32,393 nt of DNA from Selenomonadaceae bacterium. Its GTDB lineage: Bacteria > Bacillota > Negativicutes > Selenomonadales > Selenomonadaceae. The translations under genes and the position numbers were made by a program. Within the stretch, counting starts at the first letter, position 1; each line of letters starts with the position of its first letter. Positions 4,577 through 12,423 of the stretch are shown in pieces. The DNA lies in the NCBI GenBank assembly GCA_017412925.1, contig JAFPVP010000089.1:1-32393 (forward strand), in the 5' to 3' direction. The notes under the pieces are model-generated. The model searched no databases. It saw only the letters and a list, made by a program, of their open reading frames with translations, and was not told the origin of the DNA.

Positions 4577-5149
4577 ATGAAAATTTCGGGCGATGCTCTT
4601 GACAGGGCGCGGCGTGTTAAGCTTATAATATTCGATGTGGACGGTGTCTTGACGGACGGCGGAATTTACCACGGCGCGAACGGCGAACTTTTCAAGGCGT
4701 TTCATTGCCGCGACGGTTTCGGGATAACGCTTGCGCATTCATGCGGACTGAAGACGGCGATAATCACGGGGCGGACTTCGGACATGACTACTTGGCGCGC
4801 CGCCGAGTTGAATATTTCCGCCGTCATACAGGGACAAATGAATAAACGCGACGCTTATAAAAAAATCAAGGCGCAATTCAACTTGACGGACGCGGAGATT
4901 TGTTACGTTGCTGACGACGTGATTGACTTGCCGGTTTTTGTTCAAGTCGGTTTTCGGGCGGCGGTCGGCGATGCGTCGGCGGAGGTTATCGAACGGGCGC
5001 ATTTCGTGGCGAACAATTTCGGCGGTCGCGGCGCGGTTCGAGAGATTATAGAATTTATTTTGAAGGCTAAAGGATTTTGGCAGGAGATTATCGAACGGTA
5101 TACTTTACCTGAATTCGACGACAAAGAATTGACTGCGCTTAATCAGTAG
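4577..5149 (+). CDS. kdsC: 3-deoxy-D-manno-octulosonate 8-phosphate phosphatase (KdsC)
   Basis: KdsC is a HAD-superfamily phosphatase that releases phosphate from KDO-8-phosphate, a step in making the inner-core sugar KDO. The HAD motif I FDVDGVLTDGG gives Asp20 and Asp22. Motif II is the Thr in IITGRTS, and motif IV is VADDVIDLPV. At 190 residues it has the small cap-less form typical of KdsC, which works as a tetramer. Its presence shows that the organism makes LPS. It starts the LPS gene run and is followed 9 bases later by the ATG of the poly-G gene. Confidence 0.93.
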   Translation: MKISGDALDRARRVKLIIFDVDGVLTDGGIYHGANGELFKAFHCRDGFGITLAHSCGLKTAIITGRTSDMTTWRAAELNISAVIQGQMNKRDAYKKIKAQFNLTDAEICYVADDVIDLPVFVQVGFRAAVGDASAEVIERAHFVANNFGGRGAVREIIEFILKAKGFWQEIIERYTLPEFDDKELTALNQ

Positions 5150-5158
5150 GAGGAAACT

Positions 5159-6344
5159 ATGATAGAAATTTCTAATTTACGCAAGTACCATACGGGGGGG
5201 GGGCATAGTAAGATTAGAAGTTGATATAAATTTCTTGGGCGGAAACCCTTACCCAGAGAAAACGATGTACTTTGACATTCGGGAAGATTGCGGCGACATG
5301 TTCAGTGAGGACACCTACGACGCTTTTGTCCTTGTTCCGCTTTTCCTGGCAATGTATAATAAAATTCCGTTGAAAATTCGCGGCAGGATTTCAAAAAAAC
5401 TTTATAAAAATCTGACGTGGTACGTCCAAAAAATTCTGTGCGACTTCATGGACAAGCTTGTGCCCGTGGATATTTCTGTTGAAGGTTTTGCGCCGACTAA
5501 GAGCGAAGGATATTTGATAGGTGCGCCGCTCTCTTGTGGCGTCGATTCACTCTCGACCGTTTACGACCGCTACATTAACGAAAACGACCCCGATTACAAG
5601 ATCAACGCGCTGTTTATTTTTAACAACGGAACACATCGTTCCAATGATGATACAGTTACTGTCACTAAAAAATTTTTTCAAAGTCGCATTGAACGTGTTG
5701 CCCGTGCCGCTAATGAATTGCGTTTGCCGTTGCTTGTAATAGATTCCAATCTTGACAAATTTACCTATAACAATGATTTGATAAATTTAGCGTTCTTGAT
5801 AAATTATTCGTGCGTGCTGAGCCTGCAGAATGCGATTCGGCGTTACTACGTTCCTAGTGCTTACAGCTATCAAGATATAAAAGAGTTCGGGCGCAAACCC
5901 CATGGCTATGATTTGGCTGAATTCTGCGATTCGTATTTTGTGCCGCTGATTCAAACAGAGCGCACGGAGCTAATCGTTGACGGTTGCCAATATCGGCGAG
6001 TTGATAAGGTTAAACGGATTGCCGAGTGGGACATTGCGCAAAAATATCTCAATGTGTGTTGCAAACGCGGGCGGGAGAATTCGGACAACTGCGGCGAATG
6101 CGATAAATGTGAGCGTACTTTGCTGACGCTGGATATTTTGGGCAAGCTAGACAATTTTTCTGAAGTCTTTGACCTTGATAAATATAAACGAGATTCTTTT
6201 ACTATAAAAGCGAAAAATATGCATTATATCAATGAAGATGCCTTTTGCAAGGAAAATTTTGATTTGGCGGTGGAGATGAATTTCCCGATGCCGACTAAAA
6301 GGGAATGTTTCGTCATGGATAAAAAGGTTTTGGTTGTTAAATAA
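5159..6344 (+). CDS. PP-loop ATPase-like protein with C-terminal Cys cluster; poly-G tract puts the start out of frame (phase-variable)
   Basis: The long frame (5235-6344) lacks a proper start: the only nearby candidate is a TTG at 5235 without a ribosome binding site. An ATG at 5159 with AGGAGG just before it reads 21 codons and then stops at 5222-5224, because the G10 tract (5194-5203) shifts the frame. With G9 the same ATG gives a continuous 394-residue protein whose junction reads GGGIVRLEVDINFLGG. In that numbering an ATP-pyrophosphatase (PP-loop) motif SCGVDS lies at about 125-130. A probable zinc site (CC-x9-CGECDKC) lies at about 299-317, as in QueC-like proteins. The substrate is unknown. 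Its position between kdsC and the lipid A acyltransferase suggests surface-sugar modification, but this is an inference. Confidence 0.75.
5194..5203 (+). repeat. Poly-G tract (G10), putative phase-variation switch
   Basis: Ten consecutive G lie 12 codons into the reading frame that begins at ATG 5159. G9 or G12 would join the start to the 369-codon downstream frame. G10, as sequenced, ends after 21 codons. Such tracts change length by slipped-strand mispairing during replication. Confidence 0.8.
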
Positions 6345-6365: not shown

Positions 6366-7292
6366 ATGCTTTATAAAACGCTGATGATGATGAGCAGAAT
6401 AATACGGCTCCTGCCCTACGACGTTCTGTTAGCGTTGGGCTGGGTGTTCGGACATTTGTATTATCTGCTCGTCAAAAAGCAGCGGGAACGGGCAGTCGCG
6501 CAGATGATGCCCGCGCTGAACATTTCGGAGGCAGAGGCGCGAAAACTCGTAAAAGAATCTTTCATAAATTTGGCGCGAAACATGCTGGACATTTTGTACA
6601 TGCCCAACCTCAACGAAAAAAATTTGTCGCAGTTCATAGAGATTGACCACTTGGAACGAATGCGCGCGGCCTTGGCGGAAGGTCACGGCGTCGTGGTTTT
6701 GACGGGGCACGTCGGCACGTGGGAATGGTTGAGCGCGGCGTTTTCGTTGAACGGAATGCCCGTGACGGCGATTGCAAAACTTCAGCCGAACGCGGAATAC
6801 TCGCGGGCACTGGACGACTTGCGGGCGACGATTCACGTTGAAATTTTTAATCGCGGAACAAATGAACTGCGGGCGGCGGGTCGTGCACTCAAGGAAGGAA
6901 AAATTTTGGGCTTCCTAGCCGACCAAGACGCCGGACCGGGCGGAGCTTTTATAAATTTTTTGGGCAAGACGGCTTCGACGCCGCTGGGACCAGCTGTTTT
7001 CTCAAGGCGTTTCGGCGCACCAGTTTTGCCGGCGTTTATTCTTCGCAAGGAGGACGGGCGGCACCTTGTAAAAATCGGGGAAATAATGCACTTCGAGGAC
7101 ACGGGCGACACCGACGCTGACTTGTTGCGCTTTACGGAGAAGATGACTAAAATTTTGGAGCAGACGATTCGAGAAAATCCGACGCAGTGGCTGTGGTTTC
7201 AAAAACGCTGGAACACGCCGCCGGAAATGCAGAATAAAAATAAGCACCATACGGTTAAGGTGCGCAGAAAGTCTAAAGAGGAAACGACATGA
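6366..7292 (+). CDS. Lipid A biosynthesis acyltransferase (LpxL/HtrB family)
   Basis: This membrane-bound late acyltransferase adds a secondary acyl chain to KDO-lipid A, using acyl-ACP. The N-terminal hydrophobic anchor covers about residues 10-35. The catalytic HX4E motif is GHVGTWEW (His115 and Glu120). The DQDAGPGGAFINF segment and the arginine-containing region around FSRRFGAP are also typical. At 308 residues the length is normal. The ATG at 6366 has CGGAGG just upstream. Its stop overlaps the start of lptC by ATGA, so the two are coupled. Whether it prefers lauroyl or another chain cannot be told from sequence. Confidence 0.92.
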   Translation: MLYKTLMMMSRIIRLLPYDVLLALGWVFGHLYYLLVKKQRERAVAQMMPALNISEAEARKLVKESFINLARNMLDILYMPNLNEKNLSQFIEIDHLERMRAALAEGHGVVVLTGHVGTWEWLSAAFSLNGMPVTAIAKLQPNAEYSRALDDLRATIHVEIFNRGTNELRAAGRALKEGKILGFLADQDAGPGGAFINFLGKTASTPLGPAVFSRRFGAPVLPAFILRKEDGRHLVKIGEIMHFEDTGDTDADLLRFTEKMTKILEQTIRENPTQWLWFQKRWNTPPEMQNKNKHHTVKVRRKSKEETT

Positions 7293-8035
7293 GCACACGG
7301 GGCAAAATTTTAGCGGGAGTGGCAGTAATTTTTTTTGTGTGCTTGATTGTGTGGGTTGTGCGGACGACGCCAACAGAACCGCCGCCGCTAGAAAAATTCG
7401 AGCCGCCGACCGTCATGGAATACGAGGGCAACACCCTGACCGAAGAAAGAGACGGCAAAATAATTTGGGAGCTGACCTGCGACAAAATGCGCGTCGATTC
7501 GATAACGCAGGACATGGAGCTAACGAACGTCCGAGGGAAATTTTACGACGAGGAAACAACTTGGGAGCTGACAGCGGAGCGCGGCATTTACGACAGGACG
7601 GACAAGGTTATCTACGTTGAGGGCGACGTTTTTATAAGGGATAATGAAGGCTCGGAGTTGCGTAGCGAAGAATTGAGCTGGCTTACTGAAAAGGAAACGT
7701 TGACTGCGACGGGCGAAGTTAGCATTACAAAAGATGACGGCGCAAAGCTCAGCAGTGACGAATTAATTTGGTTTTCAAAAGAAGAGATCATCACCGCGAC
7801 GGGCAATGTTTACGTGATAAACGACGACGGCGCGAAACTTTTAAGCGACAAGCTGGAATGGTTCATCAGCGAGGAAAAAGTTATCGCGACGGGCAACGTA
7901 AAAATTGCCAAAGAAGACATGCGCGCTTTCGGCGACCTTGCCTATTCCGATAACGGCTTTAAACATTTCGGACTGATGGGTCATGCCAGAGTTTTAAAGG
8001 GCGTCAAAGATGACGACGAGTCGATGAAATTTTAG
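7289..8035 (+). CDS. lptC: LPS export protein LptC with an internal 30-residue repeat expansion
   Basis: LptC is the single-pass inner-membrane protein that passes LPS from LptB2FG to LptA. One membrane segment (about residues 7-25) is followed by a periplasmic beta-jellyroll domain. At 248 residues it is longer than the usual roughly 190. The extra length comes from a regular 30-residue repeat from about residue 110: units begin at bases 7616, 7706, 7796 and 7886, exactly 90 bases apart. Each carries a TATGxV-type strand and a DDGAKL-type turn. The repeats could lengthen the jellyroll groove. Start ATG 7289 overlaps the acyltransferase stop. Usually lptA follows directly; here two FkbM genes intervene. 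Confidence 0.85.
   Translation: MSTRGKILAGVAVIFFVCLIVWVVRTTPTEPPPLEKFEPPTVMEYEGNTLTEERDGKIIWELTCDKMRVDSITQDMELTNVRGKFYDEETTWELTAERGIYDRTDKVIYVEGDVFIRDNEGSELRSEELSWLTEKETLTATGEVSITKDDGAKLSSDELIWFSKEEIITATGNVYVINDDGAKLLSDKLEWFISEEKVIATGNVKIAKEDMRAFGDLAYSDNGFKHFGLMGHARVLKGVKDDDESMKF
7616..7905 (+). repeat. 90-bp coding repeat inside lptC
   Basis: Three diverged 90-base units and the start of a fourth can be aligned on the codons for (T)ATGEV / ATGNV at 7616, 7706, 7796 and 7886. The period is exact at 30 codons, and the protein similarity is clear between the second and third units (DDGAKLSSDELIWF and DDGAKLLSDKLEWF). Confidence 0.8.
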
Positions 8036-8046
8036 GGAGATGTTTT

Positions 8047-8876
8047 ATGAAAATTGAAGTTCAAAGAACTGTTTTTGTTAATAATACATCGATTAAGTTC
8101 CAAGAACAAATAAACGTTGTTCCGGAATATTATGGGTTACTTCGCGAGCGGCTTAAGGTTAAAAGAGTTCTTGGCAAAAATTTTGTTCGCGTCGGTAGAA
8201 AAAGCGATGGCGGCTATGTCATGGTTGACAATTTTAATACTTCGGGGGGGGTTGCATTGCGTATTCTTTTGGAATCAACGACGATGTTTCTTGGGATTTG
8301 GACATGGCACAGCACGGCTACGATATTTTCATGTATGACCCGACGGTTGACACATTGCCGGCGGAAAGCGATAAATTTCATTTCTTCAAGGAGGGCGTTT
8401 TCGGCGTTGAGGTTCCGGAAAAATCTTTGCACACGCTGGATTATTTCATAAAGCGCAATGGGCACGAAAATAAATCGAACATGATTTTAAAAATGGACGT
8501 AGAGGGCGCGGAGTGGAGCTTCCTGTCAACCGTCACCTCCGAGACACTGAATCAGTTTGACCAAATGGTTTTTGAATTCCATGACTTGACGGAGCCGAAA
8601 GACCAAAGCGTAATGAATGCGACGCTGGCTTGCATAAACAAGATAAATCGGACGCATTCGTTGGTTCATCTGCATGGAAATAGTTGCGGTGTTTCTTTAA
8701 TCTTGGACGATAAAATTTTATTCCCAGACACGCTTGAATTGACTTATGTTAAAACTTCAAATTATGAACTTGTTGACGATGAAAATATTTATCTTCCGAT
8801 TTCTCTTGACCGACCATGCAACGGTTACAATGAAATTCCTTTAGGCTATTGGAATAAAAAATTTTCTCACTGCTAG
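8047..8876 (+). pseudogene. FkbM-family methyltransferase, copy 1, frameshifted at a poly-G tract (probably phase-off)
   Basis: The ATG at 8047 (AGGGAGATG upstream) reads 134 codons and stops at 8451. The first 67 or so match the next gene and the rest are out of frame. The remaining C-terminal part is open from before 8298 to 8876. The frames meet at a G8 tract (8244-8251). One extra G (G9) gives a continuous 276-residue protein reading GGGCIAYSFGINDDVSW, which aligns with the 277-residue copy 2. The methyltransferase motifs DGGYVMVDNF and LKMDVEGAEW are intact on either side. It would transfer methyl from S-adenosylmethionine to an unknown acceptor, perhaps an LPS sugar. I read it as a reversible off state rather than dead, but a sequencing error is possible. 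Confidence 0.8.
8244..8251 (+). repeat. Poly-G tract (G8), putative phase-variation switch
   Basis: Eight G lie in codons that correspond to the Ser-Gly-Gly-Gly stretch of the intact copy 2, where the sequence is interrupted (GGGCGGCGGC). G9 restores the frame. The homopolymer exists only in copy 1. Confidence 0.78.
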
Positions 8877-8909: not shown

Positions 8910-9743
8910 ATGAACGTCAGCGTTTTCAAGGTGATTCAAGTTGATGGCGAGATCGTTCGCTTGATTGACGAATTCAACGTAAACATGGAATATTACGAGT
9001 TGCTTCGCGAGCGACTCAAGGTTAAAAGAGTTATCGGCAAAAATTTTGTCCACGTCGGAGAAAAGTATGACGGCGGCTATGTCATGGTCGACAACTTTGA
9101 TACTTCGGGCGGCGGCATTGCGTATTCTTTCGGAGTGGATGATTATGTTTCGTGGGATTGGGAAATGACGTGGCGCAACTATGATATTTTCATGTACGAC
9201 CCGACGGTTGACACATTGCCGGCGGAAAGCGATAAATTTCATTTCTTCAAGGAGGGCGTTTTCGGCGTCGAGGTTCCGGAAAAATCTATGCACACGCTGG
9301 ATTATTTCATAAAGCGCAATGGGCACGAAAATAAATCGAACATGATTTTAAAAATGGACGTGGAGGGCGCGGAGTGGAGTTTCCTTTCGACCGTCACCTC
9401 CGAGACACTGAATCAGTTTGACCAAATGGTTTTTGAATTCCATGACTTGACGGAGCCGAAAGACCAAAGCGTAATGAATGCGACGCTGGCTTGCATAAGT
9501 AAAATAAATCGGACGCATTCGCTGGTTCACCTGCACGGAAATAATTGGAGCAAGACGTTGCACTTGGACAATAAGATTTTATTTCCGGGTGCGCTGGAGT
9601 TGACTTACGTTAAGACTTCAAATTATGAACTGGTTGACGACGAAAATATTTATCTGCCGACGCCGCTCGATTATCCTAACAATAGTAAATTTCCCGATAT
9701 TCCTCTGGGTTATTGGAACAAAAAATTTAATTGTGTCAGATGA
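8910..9743 (+). CDS. FkbM-family methyltransferase, copy 2 (intact)
   Basis: This is a 277-residue SAM-dependent methyltransferase-like protein. Motifs are DGGYVMVDNF (about 54-63), the SAM-binding region AYSFGVDDYVSWD (71-83), and LKMDVEGAEW (147-156), the signature of the FkbM family. Known FkbM members O-methylate small molecules or sugars; the acceptor here is unknown. Placement between lptC and lptA suggests an LPS substrate (inference). ATG 8910 has AAGGAG upstream. It is a tandem duplicate of the preceding frameshifted gene; the stretch from the DPTVDTLP segment to about residue 205 is nearly identical in DNA, while the ends have diverged. It has no homopolymer and should be constitutively in frame. 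Confidence 0.85.
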   Translation: MNVSVFKVIQVDGEIVRLIDEFNVNMEYYELLRERLKVKRVIGKNFVHVGEKYDGGYVMVDNFDTSGGGIAYSFGVDDYVSWDWEMTWRNYDIFMYDPTVDTLPAESDKFHFFKEGVFGVEVPEKSMHTLDYFIKRNGHENKSNMILKMDVEGAEWSFLSTVTSETLNQFDQMVFEFHDLTEPKDQSVMNATLACISKINRTHSLVHLHGNNWSKTLHLDNKILFPGALELTYVKTSNYELVDDENIYLPTPLDYPNNSKFPDIPLGYWNKKFNCVR

Positions 9744-9752
9744 GGTTTTGAT

Positions 9753-10604
9753 ATGACTAAGCTAAAAAAAATCTGCGCGGGCTGCGCGGCGATAATGTTG
9801 ATAAGTTCGGCGGCTCTGGCTGCTGATAAGGACAACTTGCCCTCCGAGGTGAACGCCGACGCAATCGAATACGACATGAACACCGGCGTTGTCGCGGCAG
9901 AAGGAAACGTTCTTTTAAAGCACGGCACGACTAAGGCGACGGGACTCCACGCAATGTACAACGTGAACACTCAAGAGGCGCACCTTATTGGCAACGTGAT
10001 TGTTGTTGATGAGGACATGCGCATAACTTGCGGGGCGTTGATGAGCAACGGGCAGGGGCACATGATTGCGGACGAAAATGTTATCGCTACGCAGACAGTC
10101 GCGCCCAATGAAAAATATCCCCAAGGCGACGTGCGCACTTTCACGGGCGAGCACATTGACTTTTTCCCCGACGACAGAAAACACGTCCTTATCCCGACGG
10201 GCGGCGTTGCGAGGAGCGAGGTCGAGGGAACTTTCACGGCGGACAAGCTGGAAGGTTGGATAGACGACGAACGCTATATCGGCACGGGCAATGCACACCT
10301 TATCAGCCCAGCGCGGAATTTGGAAGCGGGCGGCGACCAAGTTGACTATGACGGCAAGCAGGAGGGCAAAGCAGTCGTTAGCGGAAATGCCTGGGCGATT
10401 CAAGACAACAACACAATTCGCGGCAACCGGCTGACGGTTTATCTTGCTGACGACGGAACTTTAAAAGCTGAACCGCGCGTTCAAATGCCCGCTGATTTTT
10501 CGGGAGCTTTTGAGCCGAAATCCGAGCCCGCGCAGGCTGAAGAAAAATCTGCTGATGAAACTGTCGTAATTAATCCCGACGAGGCGACGAAAGATGAATC
10601 TTGA
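9753..10604 (+). CDS. lptA: LPS transport periplasmic protein LptA
   Basis: LptA forms the periplasmic bridge that carries LPS from LptC to LptD. A signal peptide ends at about ALAA (residues 21-24). The OstA-like beta-jellyroll follows, beginning [19 protein letters not shown] and continuing with repeated short strand pairs such as GNVLLKHG and ATGLHAMYN. At 283 residues it is longer than the E. coli protein (185), as OstA proteins of diderm Firmicutes often are. The last 35 or so residues are acidic and low in complexity. It overlaps lptB by 11 bases, so translation is coupled. Confidence 0.88.
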
Positions 10605-11313
10605 GGCGCGTGATTTAGTCAAGGCGTTCAAAGGGCGCACCGTCGTCAACAAAGTTTCGCTAAGAGTTGAGACGGGCGAAATTGTCGGCTTGCTCGGACC
10701 GAATGGCGCGGGCAAGACAACTTCCTTCTATATGATGGTTGGCTTGGAAAAACCCGACGCGGGCGACGTTTTCGTTTCCGACGTGAACATTTCCAAATTG
10801 CCGATGTACAAGCGCGCGGAGCTGGGGATAAGTTATCTTACGCAGGAGGCTTCGATTTTCCGCAAGCTGACCGTCGCCGAAAATATCATGGCGATACTTG
10901 AAACGTTGCACATGACAAAAGACGAACGCCGCAAGAAACTCAACGAACTTTTGCGCGAATTCAGCATACGTCACGTCGAGAAACGCAAAGGCACGGAACT
11001 TTCTGGCGGCGAGCGGCGGCGCGTGGAAATTGCCCGCTGTCTTGCCTTGGAGCCGAAATTTATTTTGCTTGACGAGCCTTTCGCCGGTGTCGACCCGCTG
11101 GCAGTCGCCGATATTCAAGAAATTATTATGTATTTGCGCAAGCGCGGCATGGGAATTTTAATCACCGACCACAACGTCCGCGAAACTTTGCACATCGTCG
11201 ACCGCGCCTATATTTTGAACGAGGGAAAAATTTTGCTGGAAGGATCCGCTAACGAAATTGCCAACAGCGATATTGCTAAGAAATTTTATCTCGGCAGTAA
11301 CTTCACGCTCTAA
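10594..11313 (+). CDS. lptB: LPS export ABC transporter ATPase LptB
   Basis: LptB is the cytoplasmic ATPase that drives LPS extraction from the inner membrane with LptF and LptG. Walker A is GPNGAGKTT (about 35-43), the signature is LSGGERRR, Walker B is [13 protein letters not shown] and the H-loop His lies in ITDHNVRE. At 239 residues it has the usual length and composition ([14 protein letters not shown] opening). The start overlaps lptA by 11 bases, and the lptF/G-type permease follows 15 bases downstream. All catalytic motifs are intact. Confidence 0.95.
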
Positions 11314-11328: not shown

Positions 11329-12423
11329 ATGCGCTTTAGGATACTTGACAGATACATTTTTCAAGAAGTTGTCTTCGCGTTTATGTTTGCGATTTGCGCG
11401 TTTACGGCGGTTTTTATCGGTTCGGGCACGCTGTTTAGAATTGCGCGGTATATAACCGACTACGGCGCGAGCCTCTCCTCCGTGGTGAAAATTTTTGTCT
11501 ACGGCTTGCCGAATATCATCATGTGGACGTTCCCAATGTCCATGTTGCTGGCGACGCTTTTGACGTTCGGGAAATTGTCTAGTTCGAGCGAAATCACCGC
11601 GATGAAGTCTTGCGGGATAAGTTTCAGCCGAATAGCCGCGCCCGCGATTTTTTTGGGCGTTGTCGTCACGATTACCGCGATTCTCTTCAACGAGCACGTA
11701 GTACCTTGGGCGAACACCGCTTACAACAACGTCGTCTACTACGAAATTCAAGGCAACACCGAGCTTAAATCGCAAGACCACATTATCGTTAAGGAATTGA
11801 CCGGCGAGCGAATGGAGCGGCTGATTTACGCCCGCGAATACAAAGCGCAGAATGAAACTTTGGAAGGCGTGACGATGCAAGTTTTCAGCGAGGACGGCAA
11901 AGTTACGCACGTGGAGAACGCGACCTATGCCGAATGGAAAAACGATGAATGGGTTATGCATGACGGCATGATTTACGATTTGGCGGACGAACAGCGCACG
12001 CACACGATGAAATTCGACCGACAAATTTTGCCCGTCAAGGCAAGCCCGCGGCAAATCGTTCGCGAACAGAAAAAGCCCGAAGAACTCACAATGAGCGAGC
12101 TCAAGTCGCAAATCGAAATCATGAAGTCGCAATACGCCAACACGAGCAAACTTGAAACGGAACTTTATCAGCGCGTCACGGTGCCCATGGCAAGTTTAAT
12201 CTTCGCGCTGATTGGCGTGCCGCTGGGACTTCAGCCGACAAGAACTCCGTCTTCGGTGGGCTTCGCGCTCAGCGTCGTGATAATTTTCTTTTACTACGCG
12301 ATAATGACACTCGCCAACGCAATCGCCCGCAGCGGAGCAATTCCGCCAATGTACGCCGTCTGGTTGCCGAACGTCGTCGGCTTAATCGCAGGAATAATTT
12401 TAATTTATCGGGCGTCGAGGTAG
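11329..12423 (+). CDS. LptF/LptG-family LPS export permease
   Basis: This inner-membrane permease of the YjgP/YjgQ family forms the LPS-extracting channel with LptB. It has 364 residues, with membrane segments near both ends (about 15-120 and 275-360). A periplasmic beta-jellyroll lies between them (about 125-265), with the usual six-helix layout. ATG 11329 has CGGAGG upstream. Only one such gene is present here, whereas E. coli needs both LptF and LptG. Either a second copy lies elsewhere or the protein works as a homodimer, as suggested for some diderm Firmicutes. I leave the symbol open because F and G cannot be told apart. Confidence 0.9.
   Translation: MRFRILDRYIFQEVVFAFMFAICAFTAVFIGSGTLFRIARYITDYGASLSSVVKIFVYGLPNIIMWTFPMSMLLATLLTFGKLSSSSEITAMKSCGISFSRIAAPAIFLGVVVTITAILFNEHVVPWANTAYNNVVYYEIQGNTELKSQDHIIVKELTGERMERLIYAREYKAQNETLEGVTMQVFSEDGKVTHVENATYAEWKNDEWVMHDGMIYDLADEQRTHTMKFDRQILPVKASPRQIVREQKKPEELTMSELKSQIEIMKSQYANTSKLETELYQRVTVPMASLIFALIGVPLGLQPTRTPSSVGFALSVVIIFFYYAIMTLANAIARSGAIPPMYAVWLPNVVGLIAGIILIYRASR

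Follow-up and report, generated by a model that had tools for sequence, protein, structure and literature searches.

The question raised by this locus is whether a run of eight guanines that interrupts one of two adjacent methyltransferase genes, the other being intact, is a switch or a defect. The window (the whole stretch of DNA that was analyzed, 32,393 nucleotides) is the entire contig C62 of a draft, metagenome-type assembly (G000; 2,585,550 bases in 211 contigs, 94.9% complete). The nearest named relatives of this genome are metagenome assemblies of Selenomonadaceae from the sheep reticulum and the goat omasum, which places the source among the LPS-bearing Negativicutes. All genes of the region lie on the forward strand and run from a kdsC-like KDO-8-phosphate phosphatase (4577-5149) through a gene that carries a G10 tract (5160-6344), an LpxL/HtrB-type lipid A acyltransferase (6366-7292) and lptC (7289-8035) to the interrupted FkbM-type methyltransferase gene (8047-8876, copy 1), which lptC immediately precedes. 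They continue with the intact FkbM-type methyltransferase (8910-9743, copy 2), an lptA-like gene immediately 3' of it (9753-10604), lptB (10594-11313) and an LptG/LptF-type LPS export permease (11329-12423). Because these genes are closely spaced from the kdsC-like gene through the permease, their arrangement suggests that the KDO, lipid A and LPS-export cluster is a single operon. A search of IMG/VR gave no indication of a viral origin or of phage carriers.

The G8 homopolymer in copy 1 (8244-8251), which is the proposed switch and lies just 5' of the conserved IAYSFG strand, and the G10 tract at codon 12 of the upstream gene (5194-5203, tract 1) are the only G or C runs of at least seven bases within the window, and the probability of finding two or more runs of at least G8 inside it is P ~1e-4. 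The reading frame from the ATG at 8047 comprises 66 native codons, passes across the tract and ends at 8451, giving 134 amino acids. The remainder of the gene (8253-8873), which holds the Pfam Methyltransf_21 domain, is out of frame yet intact, being stop-free in another frame where the other two frames contain 13 and 18 stops. The length of the tract sets the frame of an otherwise intact copy 1, and the two halves fuse whenever that length is a multiple of three (6, 9, 12), with a product of 276 amino acids at G9. As assembled, copy 1 would be in the OFF phase. The original prediction had copy 1 split at G8 and restored to 276 residues at G9, and the frames bear out both the split and the arithmetic. 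It also had both tracts restored at exactly G9; this length does work, but every multiple of three restores the frame, so that G9 is merely the nearest such length, for tract 1 as well. The homopolymer is indeed confined to copy 1, with GGC codons in its place in copy 2, which reads TCGGGCGGCGGCATT at this position. One detail of the claimed match between the two proteins along their whole length needs correction: on the 3' side of the tract copy 1 exceeds copy 2 by two bases, and an in-frame copy 1 is therefore one residue longer there.

Assignment of the two genes to the FkbM family depends on the model consulted, because both copies exceed the Pfam gathering threshold for PF05050 (Methyltransf_21; 31.2 and 30.2 bits against 22.7) and both miss the NCBIfam cut-off for fkbM_fam, TIGR01444 (25.4 and 26.3 bits against 37.7). 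For copy 2, the quality of the AlphaFold model was too low for it to be used (pLDDT 47.7), its strand order being compatible with a Rossmann SAM-binding fold; a fold search with this low-confidence model returned no PDB match at E 0.001 or better, and a PDB sequence search of copy 2 gave no match either. FkbM-type enzymes elsewhere methylate sugars or other hydroxyls. Since the gene sits inside the LPS-export cluster, between lptC and lptA, its position points to LPS as the substrate, and the enzyme encoded by copy 1 most likely O-methylates an LPS sugar.

One way to explain the interruption is to regard copy 1 as a pseudogene of recent date: as a redundant duplicate in tandem, it would have suffered an ordinary homopolymer frameshift and would now be decaying. 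This would agree with the presence of an intact copy 2, near-identical in the core, and with the single gene found in the closest relative, G023. To this explanation we can oppose the sequence of the shifted part itself, which has remained stop-free and, compared with the G023 orthologue across 206 codons, shows 48.5 synonymous changes against 25.5 non-synonymous ones (dN/dS 0.095). The value is 0.146 when the region near-identical to copy 2 is left out, as was done because gene conversion could preserve the sequence there. These ratios show purifying selection on the out-of-frame portion of copy 1; a dN/dS of 0.095 indicates that copy 1 is not an old pseudogene, and it is compatible with a very recent break. 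Other inactivating mutations, which the original prediction had raised as a possible sign against switching, were found neither in copy 1 nor in its closest orthologue (G023). The two copies share 95-99% identity in the core (about 8341-8650) and 41-84% in the flanks, and the single gene of G023 matches copy 1 at the 5' end and copy 2 at the extreme 3' end. This pattern fits a tandem duplication followed by recombination or gene conversion between the copies in the core, and the near-identity of the core next to diverged ends is likely to reflect gene conversion.

If switching is under selection, the tract is expected to recur in the same gene with both frame states, and we therefore consider its distribution among the relatives of copy 1. 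Eleven further species of the genus have this methyltransferase gene in the same position, flanked by lptC and lptA. Three of these carry a tract at the same codon (G010, G9 in frame; G024, G13 in frame; G047, G11 shifted), and the other eight orthologues at the lpt locus have no long run at that codon. G049 and G046 have homologues at loci other than this one, each with an in-frame G9 at the same codon. In more divergent homologues from G014 (G10), G015 (G12) and G016 (G10) the tract comes about 25-30 codons later, and in one of the three the frame is shifted. Among the orthologues, and in comparisons between species only, the tract is thus found at lengths of 8, 9, 11 and 13, with in-frame as well as shifted states. 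Parsimony on the protein tree, in which many forks are weak, gives at least seven gains or losses of the tract. This count scores as tract-bearing a homologue from genus g23 (G172), whose G8 follows the conserved methyltransferase region and which we left out of the same-tract argument. The tree rows G018a and G018b represent the same paralogue and are identical for that reason; both are tract-free in their own sequences, so the tract count is unaffected. Orthologues in which tracts of other lengths are maintained in frame do not agree with the decay of a redundant duplicate, and neither does the frequency of such runs, which far exceeds chance; we regard a pseudogene as an improbable explanation of copy 1.

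The excess of long runs is apparent when the source genome is considered as a whole. The exact run lengths are G6 50, G7 7, G8 7, G9 6, G10 8, G11 6, G12 2 and G17 1, and extrapolation of the decay from G6 to G7 gives an expectation of ~1.1 runs of at least G8, against 30 observed (P ~6e-32). Runs of at least G8 form a separate class in this genome, with a gap at G7. When the flanks are read, the intragenic tracts mostly shift the frame, with both sides belonging to one gene. The genes whose frame is shifted include a TylF-type methyltransferase, a methyltransferase with a regulatory domain, a CitMHS transporter, a hexapeptide-repeat protein and an Asp/Glu racemase in which the tract lies just 5' of the GCTELP motif. 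They also include a tandem pair of similar genes without a Pfam assignment (L079, contig C170) whose tracts (G9 and G11) occupy the same codon and leave both genes out of frame. The tract in a TupA-like ATP-grasp protein is in frame. The tract of copy 1 is therefore one of a class. We also considered whether the tracts stem from a loss of mismatch repair and rejected this, because the source genome has an intact mutS, so the tracts are left unexplained by such a loss. As a separate observation, three tracts outside obvious genes (G10, G10 and G8 at L066, L073 and L078, on contigs C69, C131 and C159 of G000) share the flank ACGGGGCATT-Gn-(A)GATAAT, and one of them lies upstream of an RTX-repeat protein.

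The genome-wide data also bear on the explanation that the G8 is a sequencing or assembly error, with a true length that is in frame and a copy 1 that is constantly on. In favor of an error, the assembly is a metagenome-type draft in 211 contigs, and two contigs of G000 end within ~60 bases of a G17 (C75, 19-35) and a G11 (C147, 44-54). Such contig ends are expected if assembly breaks at variable poly-G. The existence of a long G run is itself undoubted, short poly-G has been reported to be read accurately on Illumina (PMC6321876), and the tracts found out of frame in this genome are many, not one or two. A miscall of a single base would, moreover, leave the contingency reading standing. These observations make an error even more improbable than a pseudogene.

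A further alternative would have the G8 state itself yield some full-length protein because the ribosome (or the transcription machinery) makes a programmed -1 slip within the G run. The sequence G GGG GGG does conform to a slippery heptamer, and both frames would be joined by a -1 shift. There is, on the other side, no stable RNA structure 3' of the tract (z-scores 0.37 to 0.69), tract 1 would require the opposite shift, and the in-frame orthologues retain the tract without any need of a shift. We rejected programmed frameshifting because the downstream RNA structure is absent, and among the alternatives it appears to us the least credible, with hardly any chance of being correct. In the tract-1 gene, the frame from the ATG at 5160 runs into the G10 and meets a stop codon, TAG, just 3' of it, so the gene is out of frame as assembled. 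Its product gave no match in Pfam or NCBIfam and none in a PDB sequence search; an SCGVDS motif and CxxC pairs resemble those of PP-loop ATPases. Of the 66 genomes in the genus, 27 have relatives of this gene, some of which lie in the same gene cluster and most of which lack a tract. A nearby run of seven or more Gs is present in no more than one of 19 relatives, so tract 1 is not conserved in its family.

Copy 1 is, in our judgment, very probably a translational phase-variation (contingency) locus for an LPS-modifying methyltransferase that operates through slipped-strand mispairing. The contingency system put forward in the original prediction gains support from the recurrence of the tract at the same codon in varied lengths and frames, from purifying selection, and from a genome and genus rich in tracts. 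Slipped-strand mispairing at replication would add Gs to the tract of copy 1 or remove them. A tract length divisible by three would turn the gene on and give the full methyltransferase, and any other length would leave only 66 native residues, stopping before the conserved IAYSFG and LKMDVEGAEW motifs. The ON state would lead to O-methylation of an LPS sugar and the population would be mixed for that mark, with copy 2 remaining constantly on. The benefit would presumably be escape from phage, protozoa or host antibody. Weighing against the reading as a switch, eight of the 12 species with the lpt-locus gene have no tract, and tract 1 is unconserved in its own family. G8 is also near the lower limit for efficient slippage, and this in a genome whose mutS is intact.

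In mucosal Proteobacteria and Campylobacterota, phase variation through poly-G tracts is a textbook matter, with a mechanism known in Campylobacter and Neisseria. In C. jejuni a poly-G of at least 8 is an experimentally established switch, and its homology groups contain variable members next to non-variable ones, with the tract present in some and absent from others (PMC6321876). As in the phasome of C. jejuni and its relatives, the G tracts here are mostly 8-12 long and lie in coding sequences, many of them in surface-glycan and methyltransferase genes, and there are homologues with and without a tract and tens of loci per genome (PMC6321876). Unlike C. jejuni, the lineage considered here belongs to the Negativicutes (Bacillota with LPS), is uncultured and of gut or rumen origin, and has mutS, with switching here a prediction. 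The closest parallel to the gene itself is NTHI0694 of H. influenzae 86-028NP, a member of the FkbM family with a G12 tract close to the 5' end of the gene, which is likewise an FkbM-type methyltransferase with a coding poly-G and a proposed role in LPS O-methylation (PMC2651432). NTHI0694 is a single strain-specific gene in another phylum, whereas the gene described here lies between lptC and lptA, has an intact second copy and shows recurrence of the tract across species. A literature search in which subscription journals were thinly covered returned no paper on phase variation in the Selenomonadaceae and none specific to poly-G in the Negativicutes; with those journals largely uncovered, this is not proof of absence. 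The mechanism is already known, and the apparent novelty lies in the lineage and in the scale reached in this genus.

That scale varies widely, with 2 to 88 tracts of at least G9 per genome (median 15) among the 66 genomes of the genus, compared with a median of 3 in the other genera of the family (123 genomes, 29 genera; Mann-Whitney P 2e-18). Some sister genera (g13, g14 and g23) also attain 17-26. The largest number, 88, occurs in G018, a genome of the same genus scored as 100% complete with 2.4 Mb, and thirty tracts sampled from it (L119-L148) have lengths of 10-14 with a mode of 12. These counts raise a broader proposition, for and against which we see equal reason, that the poly-G phasome of this uncultured genus of the Selenomonadaceae may rank among the larger ones in bacteria as a whole (as many as 88 tracts of at least G9 in 2.4 Mb), with switches in the core LPS-export cluster and in promoter spacers and with recombination between copy 1 and copy 2 as a second layer of variation. 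If phase variation is confirmed, abundant Negativicutes of gut and rumen would diversify their LPS by the same, convergent mechanism, which in the rumen would affect resistance to phage, grazing by protozoa and recognition by antibodies. Many of the 'pseudogenes' in draft genomes of gut and rumen Negativicutes would then be genes that are switched off.

G018 also has about seven glycosyltransferase-like paralogues with a tract at one codon, in a mixture of in-frame and shifted states, and several of its sampled tracts are intergenic. At L119 and L122, near base 1500, the poly-G lies between TTGACA and TATACT/TATAAT-like boxes, as in TTGACAct-G11-caacTATACT with its 17-base spacer, and these two tracts are possible promoter-spacer switches.
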